Source: an uncultured beta proteobacterium
GTDB taxonomy: Bacteria; Pseudomonadota; Gammaproteobacteria; Burkholderiales; Rhodocyclaceae
Assembly: GCA_903917505.1 (NCBI GenBank)
Contig: CAIXAY010000092.1
Coordinates: 1-7,621, forward strand
Length of the DNA: 7,621 nt
Direction: 5' to 3'
The position numbers were made by a program, and so were the translations under genes. Under the pieces are notes generated by a model. That model made no database searches. It was not told the DNA's origin and saw only the letters and a program-made list of their open reading frames with translations. This document shows, one piece after another, positions 1,553 through 6,837 of this stretch. Numbering within the stretch: the stretch's first letter is position 1; every line of letters starts with the position of its first letter.

Positions 1553-1671
1553 TTAACCACAACGAGCACAACGAAATCAAGAGAACAAGAATTTTTCGAG
1601 CTTGCCGGCGGGGTCGATTCAGCGAGGTTCGATAAAGTATTCGTTGTGCCCGTTGTGCCCGTTGTGGTTAA
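1553..1671. repeat. Palindromic repeat with 9-nt-unit arms, copy 1
   Basis: The left arm starts TTAAC and continues with CACAACGAG and CACAACGAA (two units, ending at 1575). The right arm (1640 to 1671) is its inverse with three units: TTCGTTGTG, CCCGTTGTG, CCCGTTGTG, then GTTAA. The 64-nt interior includes CTTGCCGGCGGG (1601 to 1612). The element lies 5 bp after the trhP stop codon and 2 bp before the target duplication of the insertion sequence. A transcript could fold into a long hairpin that ends or protects the trhP mRNA, which is inference. A second copy occurs at 6336 to 6472. The arms have stop-free frames (for example VVPVVP), so short apparent reading frames here are probably not genes. 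Confidence 0.85.
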
Positions 1672-1682: not shown

Positions 1683-1700
1683 CAGTAGTGTCCCAACGTT
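1683..1700 (+). repeat. Left terminal inverted repeat of the IS
   Basis: CAGTAGTGTCCCAACGTT is the exact reverse complement of 2984 to 3001. Two further outer bases also pair (TT/AA), but they belong to the target duplication, so the IS boundary is set at C1683. The inner end overlaps the transposase stop codon. Confidence 0.9.
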
Positions 1701-2862
1701 ATTCGAACAGAATCAGTTGGTTGGGATTTTCCAGCGGATTCTCGGCAAGTGGTGCGCGTGCAAGCAGTTGATCCAACGGGGTTCTCTCGAACATTGTGAG
1801 GCTCAAGATTTGTAGGATTTCGTAGAGTGAGGCGGAGAGATTTAGCCGCTTCTTGAGGATGGTGACGAGAACGTAGACGGACACGGCAATCCAGATTTGG
1901 GACTTGACCGCATTCTCCGAAGTGCCGAAGAAAGCTTTGATACGCAGATGCTGCTTGATCCACTTGAAGAACAATTCGATCTGCCAACGGCAGCGATAGA
2001 GATCGGCGATGGTTCGTGCCGGCAGGTCGGTGTTGTTGGTCAGAAAGACGAGCGTCTTCCCTTCGTCGTCTTTGATCCGGATTCGACGCAGTGGTGTGGG
2101 ATAGCCCTTGAGCGAGTAAAACCCGGTGAGCGTTCCGATCTGATTGCAGAGGATCCCGCCGGCTCGATCCGATTGCATCGAATAGCGACGTTTGAAGCGC
2201 AGATTCGACTTGGCGCGGATGACGAAAAAGCGGCCGACCTGATGCAATCGATGCAGTTGCTCGAAGTCGATGTAACCCCGATCCATGACGTAGAAGGCAC
2301 CGGGTTCGGGCACCAGCATGTCGAAGATATTGACCTCGTGCCACTTGCCGTCGCTGATGTGAATGAAACTCGGAATGTTGCCGCGCAGGTCGAGCAGCGT
2401 ATGCATCTTCACCGCCGCCTTGGTCGTTCGAAACGGCGCCCACGGGAAGACCGACAGGCACAAGTCGATGGTCGTGGCATCCAGGGCATAGACCGTATTG
2501 GACAGATCGACGCCGAACGGCTCGTTCGCATAAAGCTTGCGAGCAATACTGATCAGACTTTGTGCGAAGTCGGCGTAGATGCGCCAGTCGCGAACCGCAT
2601 TGGCATTGGCCAGGGTGTTCCTTGCTACCGGGCTGCGGAATCCCATGTGATAGAGCTTGGCGACCTGGCTGCGAAGGCAGGCTTCGATATCGCGCAGACT
2701 TTCCCGATAGGTCAGTTGCGCAAAGGTCATGCACAGATAGTGATCGAGACACGTGAAGTGCTTGATCTTGTGCTCCCCATCGTAGCGAGCAACGCAGCGA
2801 CGAAAGGTGGTCAGTGGCAGATGCGCCATGACCTGCGCAAAGACAAGTTTGCCTGTGTTCAT
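1699..2862 (-). CDS. IS4-family DDE transposase
   Basis: The 387-aa transposase catalyses cut-and-paste movement of the surrounding IS. It has an N-terminal region resembling the DUF4372 type (KLVFAQVM, then HFTCLDHYLCMTFAQLTYRE), which probably contributes to DNA binding. An RNase H-like DDE catalytic domain follows. Counting from the ATG at 2862, the likely acidic residues are Asp128 (YALDATTIDL), Asp194 (VMDRGY) and Glu296. The IS4 signature Y-(2)-R-(3)-E-(6)-K is intact: Tyr289, Arg292, Glu296 and Lys303 in YRCRWQIELFFKWIK. A TTG two codons upstream (2868) is an alternative start; the ATG is preferred because neither has a clear Shine-Dalgarno sequence. There is no frameshift or internal stop, so the enzyme is probably functional. 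It runs opposite to trhP and the glycosyltransferase gene. Confidence 0.93.
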   Translation of the reverse strand: MNTGKLVFAQVMAHLPLTTFRRCVARYDGEHKIKHFTCLDHYLCMTFAQLTYRESLRDIEACLRSQVAKLYHMGFRSPVARNTLANANAVRDWRIYADFAQSLISIARKLYANEPFGVDLSNTVYALDATTIDLCLSVFPWAPFRTTKAAVKMHTLLDLRGNIPSFIHISDGKWHEVNIFDMLVPEPGAFYVMDRGYIDFEQLHRLHQVGRFFVIRAKSNLRFKRRYSMQSDRAGGILCNQIGTLTGFYSLKGYPTPLRRIRIKDDEGKTLVFLTNNTDLPARTIADLYRCRWQIELFFKWIKQHLRIKAFFGTSENAVKSQIWIAVSVYVLVTILKKRLNLSASLYEILQILSLTMFERTPLDQLLARAPLAENPLENPNQLILFE

Positions 2863-2983
2863 TGCCAACGCCCGCGGTCCGGTTGGAAGAGCCGGAAATG
2901 CTACAGGCGATGTTCAAATCGAGACCAGCTCCAAACACGGAATATCCTCTATCCTTCAACTTGTTACACGAACCCGGCGTGAG

Positions 2984-3001
2984 AACGTTGGGACACTACT
3001 G
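2984..3001 (-). repeat. Right terminal inverted repeat of the IS
   Basis: AACGTTGGGACACTACTG is the exact complement of the left end. It contains TTGGGA reading outward (2988 to 2993), a weak -35-like sequence pointing at the glycosyltransferase gene. No good -10 lies at normal spacing. Confidence 0.9.
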
Positions 3002-3010
3002 AATCTACTT
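3002..3010 (+). repeat. Target site duplication, right copy
   Basis: AATCTACTT is identical to 1674 to 1682. Removing the IS and one copy restores a short spacer between palindromic repeat copy 1 and the glycosyltransferase start codon. Confidence 0.88.
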
Positions 3011-6309: not shown

Positions 6310-6335
6310 GGGAATGAATTGAAAATGAAAAGCGA

Positions 6336-6472
6336 TTAACCACAACGGGCACAACGAGCACAACGAGCACAACGAAATCCATAGATAAAAAACTCTTCCG
6401 CTCGCCGGCGGGCCGCTCGGACAAAGCTTATCGAAAAAGCGTTCGTTGTGCCCGTTGTGCTCGTTGTGGTTA
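6336..6472. repeat. Palindromic repeat with 9-nt-unit arms, copy 2
   Basis: The left arm begins TTAAC, then CACAACGGG, CACAACGAG, CACAACGAG and CACAACGAA (four units, ending at 6376). The right arm starts at 6442 and has three inverted units: TTCGTTGTG, CCCGTTGTG, CTCGTTGTG, then GTTA. The 65-nt interior holds CTCGCCGGCGGG (6401 to 6412), one base different from copy 1 and at nearly the same distance from both arms. The element fills the gap between the rsfS stop codon (2 bp away) and the rlmH start (26 bp away). The rsfS-rlmH transcript would carry a long hairpin here. Confidence 0.85.
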
Positions 6473-6474
6473 TA

Positions 6475-6837
6475 TTATGCAGACGCCGACACAGCCTTGC
6501 GCGCTCGCGCCGGGCCCTTGCTGCCCCACAGCTCTTCGAGGTTGTAATAGCTGCGGATCGCCGGCTGCATGACGTGGACGACGATGTCGCCGAGATCGAC
6601 GAGCACCCATTCGCCGTTTTCCTCGCCCTCGGTGGACAGGATCGTCACGCCCGCTTCGCGTACCTTGTCCTGTACGTTGCGCGCCAAGGATTTGACCTGG
6701 CGGTTCGAATCGCCGCAGGCGATGACGATGCGTTCGAACAGGGAGCTGAGCTTGGCGGTATTGATGACTTCGATGTCGCGGCCCTTGATGTCTTCGAGGG
6801 CGCTGACGACGAGTTTTTCCAGCTGGGGTAGTTTCAT
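6475..6837 (-). CDS. rsfS: Ribosomal silencing factor RsfS
   Basis: RsfS binds protein L14 (uL14) of the large ribosomal subunit and blocks subunit joining, lowering translation in starvation or stationary phase. The 120-aa product has the usual length and motifs: ALEDIKGRDIEVIN (13 to 26), VIACGDSNRQVKSLA (38 to 52) and EGEENGEWVLVDLGDIVVHV (70 to 89), followed by RSYYNLEELW (95 to 104). The tail after that is short and rich in basic residues and alanine. The ATG at 6837 lies 7 bp after the nadD stop codon, with GGAG somewhat far upstream inside nadD, so the genes are probably co-transcribed. The stop codon lies 2 bp from palindromic repeat copy 2. Confidence 0.95.
   Translation of the reverse strand: MKLPQLEKLVVSALEDIKGRDIEVINTAKLSSLFERIVIACGDSNRQVKSLARNVQDKVREAGVTILSTEGEENGEWVLVDLGDIVVHVMQPAIRSYYNLEELWGSKGPARARKAVSASA

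Follow-up and report, generated by a model that had tools for sequence, protein, structure and literature searches.

The window, by which we mean the whole 7,621-nucleotide stretch of contig CAIXAY010000092.1 from an uncultured beta proteobacterium, contains two palindromes with inverted arms that are built from tandem 9-nt units. Copy 1 starts 5 nt past the stop codon of a U32 peptidase gene, and copy 2 is located between rsfS and rlmH, in a minus-strand gene run of the order nadD-rsfS-rlmH-maf. Arms of this plan recur in other genomes, where they flank genes of the GxxExxY family (TIGR04256/PF13366), and this gene link, GxxExxY between inverted periodic arms, is the main new result of the analysis. 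The parts of the two palindromes are as follows.

1553-1671: copy 1, whole, arms and interior
1553..1573, plus strand: left arm of copy 1, TTAACCACAACG followed by 1 unit
1574..1641, no strand: interior of copy 1, without a gene, related to the interior of copy 2
1642..1671, minus strand: right arm of copy 1, units in inverted series, ending in GTGGTTAA
6310..6474, minus strand: rsfS-rlmH interval containing copy 2
6336-6472: copy 2, whole, arms and interior
6336..6374, plus strand: left arm of copy 2, TTAACCACAACG followed by 3 units
6375..6443, no strand: interior of copy 2
6444..6472, minus strand: right arm of copy 2, ending in GTGGTTA, 2 nt from the rsfS stop codon (6475-6477, minus strand)

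Both palindromes stand far above chance expectation. The word CACAACGRGCACAACG, with up to two mismatches, has eight occurrences in the window where 0.01 would be expected, and all eight fall inside the arms of the two copies. Arm-to-arm alignment yields scores of 37 for copy 1 and 50 for copy 2, where the best of 2000 plain shuffles per copy reached 27 and 23, and folding as single-stranded DNA gives z-scores of -4.8 and -6.9, respectively, with none of 200 shuffles folding equally well. These values bear out the original prediction, which had described two palindromes with inverted 9-nt tandem units. The left and right arms comprise 2 and 3 units in copy 1, and 4 and 3 units in copy 2. When aligned with each other, the interiors (taken as 64 and 65 nt) are related, with a score that none of 1000 shuffles reached, and the two copies therefore look like sisters; the prediction had held the interiors to be slightly less alike than they are. 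Neither copy (about 120-137 nt) contains an open reading frame (ORF) of at least 80 amino acids, and hence no ORF for S23, the second protein family considered below.

Rfam returned no match in the window at gathering score, PADLOC gave none, and the element had none among plasmid and phage sequences. In being short and gene-less, with inverted terminal repeats and several copies (two in the window, others elsewhere), it resembles a miniature inverted-repeat transposable element (MITE). Its folds pair one arm with the opposite arm and not within a single arm, and its units read CACAACGRG, unlike repetitive extragenic palindromes (REPs, REPINs), in which each repeat is a hairpin with a GTAG-type tag. 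Unlike intervening sequences (IVSs), which are located in 23S rRNA, both copies adjoin protein genes. The expectation that the repeat would recur elsewhere and belong to no catalogued family has held, as further copies were found and Rfam has no match, though a 2009 study of Geobacter had already reported the gene-less plan and interpreted it differently (PMC2700814).

Directly right of copy 1, positions 1683-3001 are occupied by an IS4-family insertion sequence (IS; DDE_Tnp_1, DUF4372; NF033592). It has inverted ends and is bordered by a 9-bp direct repeat of its own, AATCTACTT, at 1674-1682 and 3002-3010. Its ends differ from the palindrome arms, in agreement with what had been predicted; ends that match the arms were found instead around a GxxExxY gene in genome G010. 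At copy 2, the longest rlmH frame (start 6372; 6310-6372) crosses the left arm, which adds 21 residues (MCSLCSLCPLW...). This extension is likely a false start, and it illustrates for annotation that reading frames can cross arms.

Thirteen stretches from a collection of 84,980 species contain the 21-base left end with one unit. Its carriers are Propionivibrio, Accumulibacter, a betaproteobacterium and other Pseudomonadota, a metagenome-assembled genome of Chitinophagales (Bacteroidota) and Rhodohalobacter halophilus (Balneolota), which places the arm word in three phyla. In the 11 genomes behind these stretches we counted the arm word with 17 fixed letters and up to two mismatches on both strands, using the reversed pattern as a control. 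The counts are 78 against 6 in G001, 51 against 2 in G010 and 27 against 2 in G004, and are not above the control in G003 and G011 (5 against 5 in each) or in G009 (5 against 4). Sixty stretches were read, and a motif rule finds paired arms in 37 of them (23 of 25 in G010, 12 of 20 in G001 and 2 of 15 in G004). The paired arms of G010 span 73-494 bp; 22 of the 23 stretches are gene-less and one carries a GxxExxY gene, and ACCACAACG, the window's word, opens this gene-bearing copy as well as the left side of 16 of the 22 gene-less copies. A dispersed intergenic repeat, perhaps a non-autonomous mobile element, had been proposed, and the copies across species and phyla, the gene-bearing form with the same word, and the occupied and unoccupied junctions described below all support that proposal.

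The tests of arm agreement and target duplication rest on the 23 copies of G010 and the 12 of G001. Arms in G010 agree better with their own partner (0.835) than with arms of other copies (0.766), a result reached by none of 20000 permutations, whereas in G001 the relation is reversed (0.744 against 0.807) and the spacers have a fixed, asymmetric order, which indicates that the element has a direction. In contrast to G010, the spacer pairs of the G001 copies (L217-L236) tend to read AA,GG on one arm and GG,AA on its partner. The anticipated excess of agreement within a copy thus held in one genome and was inverted in the other; it may reflect ancestry, and arm covariation was set aside as a general proof of pairing. 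The G010 copies L179, L181, L182, L184, L185, L187, L194 and L196 contain further dispersed repeats nested within them, such as GTCATTGCGAGCGATAGCG and TACCCAAAACGCTTTGCGGGGCAGGCTCTC. On the reverse strand of L270, at about 230-460, there are three consecutive right arms, representing elements that are nested or side by side, and a short GxxExxY-like tail, MTHLKKGIKQVSI, is seen by eye between two of them.

The test of the gene link started from an indication that repeats of this kind accompany GxxExxY genes. PF13366 matches 10 places in 6 of the 11 arm-word genomes, and most of these are flanked by inverted arms with units of ~9 nt, which in G010 (L049/L188) have the window's own word. The family is also present in 32 of 200 genomes of the phylum of G010. 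The upstream flank of each locus was aligned to the inverted downstream flank and compared with 50 dinucleotide shuffles, using 38 loci with both flanks. These loci are not randomly sampled, as 9 belong to the 11 genomes picked by arm word and 29 are the best place per genome in 29 genomes of the G010 phylum. Inverted arms score above all 50 shuffles in 31 of the 38 loci, with z > 5 in 30, and in these 30 the strongest lag is 8 nt (5 loci), 9 nt (13) or 10 nt (12). Tested likewise, none of 29 rlmH loci and none of 9 Y1 transposase loci showed arms. One GxxExxY locus at a contig end (L052) was excluded, as were L056, L059 and L061 from the S23 set, L097 from the rlmH control and 14 of 23 Y1 loci that were shorter than 3300 bases; sequences containing stops were left out of alignments and identities. 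Controls with mismatched loci gave medians of 21 and 20 and maxima of 346 and 469, the maxima being taken as overlapping or duplicated loci. The unit words are diverse (CACAACG, CGCAGAG, CACGAAG, ACGCAGATGA, AATGAAACG, CGGAATAAA), and the inversion and the period of ~9-10 nt are retained.

A further, hand-picked sample of 23 loci, taken from the rest of the phylum list, where every place judged truncated was included, and from viral sequences, comprises 9 full genes, 1 nearly full gene, 10 truncated genes and 3 viral ones. Twenty of the 23 outscore 50 plain shuffles, which is a less strict control, given that 5 of the 29 rlmH loci (best score 31) also pass a plain-shuffle maximum of 20 while none passes with dinucleotide shuffles. 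Of the 10 truncated genes, 8 still lie between arms, some of them with just 32-39 matching profile positions, and the arms can therefore outlive the gene. GxxExxY also occurs in 8 plasmid records, with arms in 4 of the 7 examined (Bacteroides finegoldii, Gemmatirosa, Bernardetia and Sphingomonas). On the Gemmatirosa plasmid (L323), near-perfect gene-less palindromes flank the GxxExxY gene on both sides.

The GxxExxY protein carries, by prediction, a Cas4-like nuclease fold, together with a nuclease signature; a search by sequence for solved relatives returned none that was convincing. Relative to their neighbours, the genes are mostly in sense orientation. In 37 loci, 30 have both neighbours on the same strand, 2 have both on the opposite strand and 5 are mixed, where co-direction was judged from the longest open frame on either side and not from annotation. 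Five annotated plasmid loci, 2 of them without arms, likewise lie in sense between co-directional genes. We read this orientation as dependence on read-through transcription.

S23 genes (PF05635, four helix bundle), whose helical-bundle product is pentameric, form a parallel case. They are found in 3 of the 11 arm-word genomes and in 45 of 61 genomes of the phylum of G008. In the arm test, 24 of 34 S23 loci (5 + 29) score above all shuffles and 14 have z > 5; the strongest lag in these 14 is 7 or 14 nt in 12 loci and 8 nt in 2, and the arm words vary from genome to genome. A top lag of 8 instead of 7 nt was seen at L064, L066, L070 and L078 (L066 not significant). The IVS in the 23S rRNA of Coxiella has been described as having terminal inverted repeats and tandem heptamers ahead of its S23 ORF (PMC4990558), an independent description that fits the 7-nt pattern of S23 arms.

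Such likeness could also mean that the element acts at the RNA level, as IVSs do: the arms would form a stem in the transcript that is cut by RNase III, making insertion into operons or rRNA harmless, and GxxExxY and S23 would both belong to elements of this sort. The placement of S23 genes in inverted arms, mostly with a 7-nt period, is in line with this, as are the cleavage of the Coxiella IVS, with its terminal inverted repeats and heptamers before S23, by RNase III in vitro (PMC4990558), the mainly sense position of gene-bearing copies between co-directional genes, and the strong folding of the copies, which was computed with DNA parameters. Selected RNA stems should, however, show more G-U than A-C mismatches on the coding strand, and no such bias was seen (38 against 34 in 34 of the 38 GxxExxY loci, 26 against 29 in 24 of the 34 S23 loci). 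The arms of G001, moreover, are less alike within a copy than across copies. An RNA-level element, which the original prediction had offered as an alternative, finds no support in the mismatch test, and we consider it unlikely.

To see where elements are present or absent, we turn to orthologous gene junctions. Of 150 genomes in the family of G006, 145 yielded RlmH, and the rsfS-rlmH junction was read in the best 30 of those places. In 29 of the 30 relatives the rsfS stop lies -60 to +4 nt from the rlmH start, free of any element, and copy 2, plus 26 and 2 nt of outer sequence, is for this reason best read as an insertion. The 30th relative (L102 in G122) is without rsfS at this place and has four arm series within 140 nt upstream of rlmH, on the reverse strand; these are right-arm-like, have different words (ACCACAACG, ACCACGGAG, ACCACGACG and one weaker), and represent clustered or nested elements at the site of copy 2.

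At pth-ychF, compared in four genomes of the genus of G010, G438 has a 35-bp gap, and G010, G439 and (up to the contig end) G007 have GxxExxY elements. Their GxxExxY proteins (77 residues in G007) share 75-81% identity among themselves and no more than 52% with the remaining ones of 37. The arm words of G010 and G439 differ: the two arms of one element match at 32 of 33 positions in one case and 29 of 33 in the other, against 24-26 of 31 for arms compared between the species. The ubiB-uvrD junction holds gene-less copies common to G011, G006 and G002. Among the 28 genomes of their genus there are 24 close uvrD places, and a script located 19 junctions (G002 was read separately); G011 and G006 are occupied, L243 has a short palindrome, and the other 16 are, by eye, without such an element. 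Two candidate empty sites were rejected, one for G006 C55, where the copy has a single clear arm and relatives carry other sequence, and one for G010 C70 site 2, where G438 is without the element yet holds other sequence. The empty orthologous sites that had been called for were obtained as unoccupied junctions, without an exact insertion boundary.

These junctions bear on the proposal made for the paired repeats of Geobacter metallireducens, namely that they are static binding sites for a chromosomal or global regulatory protein similar to integration host factor (IHF) or HU. The plan interpreted in this way in 2009 is identical, with tandem repeats, mostly in opposite-strand pairs, at variable distance (PMC2700814). 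Static sites would nevertheless leave unexplained the GxxExxY and S23 genes and the truncated genes between arms, the unoccupied orthologous junctions, and the differing unit words at one site in sister species, and we regard them as a very improbable account.

Alternatively, an unrelated transposase (DDE or Y1/RAYT) could move the palindromes as MITE- or REPIN-like elements, in which GxxExxY would be cargo. Gene-less copies with inverted repeats do resemble MITEs, Y1 genes are present in 11 of 13 genomes tested, some inverted repeat lies within 700 nt of 9 of 15 Y1 loci (above 10 shuffles), and ISs near class 1 sites are mentioned for Geobacter (PMC2700814). G001 and G007, however, have no Y1 match despite many arm matches. 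The repeats at Y1 loci use other words (GGGGTCAGA, GGGGACA), with none of the CAC type found by eye in 15 of 23 loci examined in related genomes, and inverted arms are present within 350 nt at none of 9 Y1 loci. The absence of target duplication in the 23 and 12 copies and the different ends of the window's IS4-family IS also speak against a transposase of this kind, and we judge it quite improbable, somewhat more so than action at the RNA level.

We therefore favour, with a probability of roughly 0.6, the reading in which the two palindromes represent a small mobile DNA element in its gene-less, non-autonomous form; when complete, this element consists of an arm of 9-10-nt tandem units, a single GxxExxY gene and an inverted arm. 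The window element is then probably served by GxxExxY, and its mobilisation, like any action of GxxExxY on the arms, is what we infer. The conserved part of the element is the arms, with their period, their inversion and often a TTAACC-like outer end, while the unit word varies from lineage to lineage. GxxExxY, as a predicted Cas4/RecB-type PD-(D/E)XK nuclease, may recognise units spaced about one helical turn apart, or the hairpin or cruciform formed by paired arms. It would cut at the arms, and the element would then be pasted into intergenic gaps without target duplication. Gene-bearing copies would be retained mostly in sense between co-directional genes and transcribed by read-through; where the gene is lost, the arms may still be movable in trans or merely persist, as in the window.

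Several observations weigh against this reading. Seven of the 38 GxxExxY loci have no significant arms, nor do 3 of the 7 plasmid loci, and G001, the genome richest in gene-less matches (78 against 6), is without a PF13366 match, the completeness of this genome not being stated. The gene-less interiors are mostly unlike one another (21 of 210 pairs in G010, some via a nested repeat, and 7 of 55 in G001 exceed the shuffle maximum) and contain no significant GxxExxY remains apart from the intact gene of L188, which leaves the truncated genes alone to suggest an origin by internal deletion. As S23 genes occupy look-alike arms, both GxxExxY and S23 could be passengers of a common arm system. The four arm series of mixed words in L102 suggest that rsfS-rlmH could be a long-standing or repeatedly used target. 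No target-site duplication, as expected of a MITE, was detected in the 23 G010 and 12 G001 copies when outer flanks were compared with permuted partners, no exact insertion boundary was obtained from the comparisons between species, and movement of the element was inferred and not observed.

More tentatively, and with odds clearly against it, GxxExxY (9-10-nt arms) and S23 (7-8-nt arms) might be the proteins that move a new class of bacterial mobile DNA without a known transposase, the rRNA IVSs being its rRNA branch. Proteins of this class, a Cas4-like nuclease or a helical-bundle protein, would read the spacing of the units instead of their sequence, leaving the arms free to adopt any word provided that both of them and the period are retained.

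GxxExxY and 'four helix bundle' genes are widely annotated without a function (here in 32 of 200 and 45 of 61 genomes). An arm period that is specific to the protein unites these two orphan families, the rRNA IVSs and many intergenic repeats in a single question, whether the protein acts on the arms. If the favoured reading is true, the much-annotated and unexplained bacterial gene GxxExxY gains a role, and if its nuclease indeed moves the element, a Cas4-type enzyme would drive a mobile element that uses no known transposase.

A literature search that covered few subscription journals and no supplements found nothing linking GxxExxY to such arms. Searches for the words of the window and for CACAGAG-type words returned unrelated papers only. 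Among described systems, the 23S rRNA IVS of Coxiella burnetii is likewise a small selfish element with terminal inverted repeats, short tandem units (heptamers), one small ORF and variants in which this ORF is damaged; it differs in its location in 23S rRNA, its 7-nt unit and its S23 helical bundle, whereas the kind found in the window is intergenic, with 9-nt units and GxxExxY where a gene is present (PMC4990558). The predicted global regulator binding sites of Geobacter metallireducens (classes 1-3) share tandem 7-9-nt repeats, mostly in opposite-strand pairs at variable distance and in tens of copies. The unit of class 2 (three tandem repeats, TCTCCGTS[Y], paired), read on the opposite strand, resembles CAC-type arm units, and the window shares its plan with a different word (CGTTGTGCY). 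These sites differ in their interpretation as IHF/HU-type sites, and the parts of the report available to us mention neither GxxExxY nor S23 (PMC2700814). The intergenic TAACTGA repeats of Beggiatoaceae are also sets of tandem heptamers with a sporadic distribution and suspected horizontal spread, but the sets are direct, with one inverted pair, and a term search of the text gave no mention of GxxExxY (PMC4679880).

Bacterial MITEs such as NEMIS, RUP, ERIC and Nezha are similarly non-coding, 70-300 bp long and adjacent to genes, with inverted terminal repeats (PMC3733652); in the window kind, by contrast, neither target duplication nor a DDE transposase with matching ends was found. RAYT/REPIN and TIRYT/TIRtron systems likewise combine one small gene inside inverted repeats with dispersed gene-less copies of the repeat, but their enzyme is a tyrosine (Y1/HUH) transposase and not a PD-(D/E)XK nuclease, and REPs are short GTAG-tagged hairpins. 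Some terminal inverted repeats of TIRtrons share GGGGWSAS, with no 9-nt period stated in the sections at hand (PMC3733652). In their logic, TIRtrons are the nearest analogue of the element described here.
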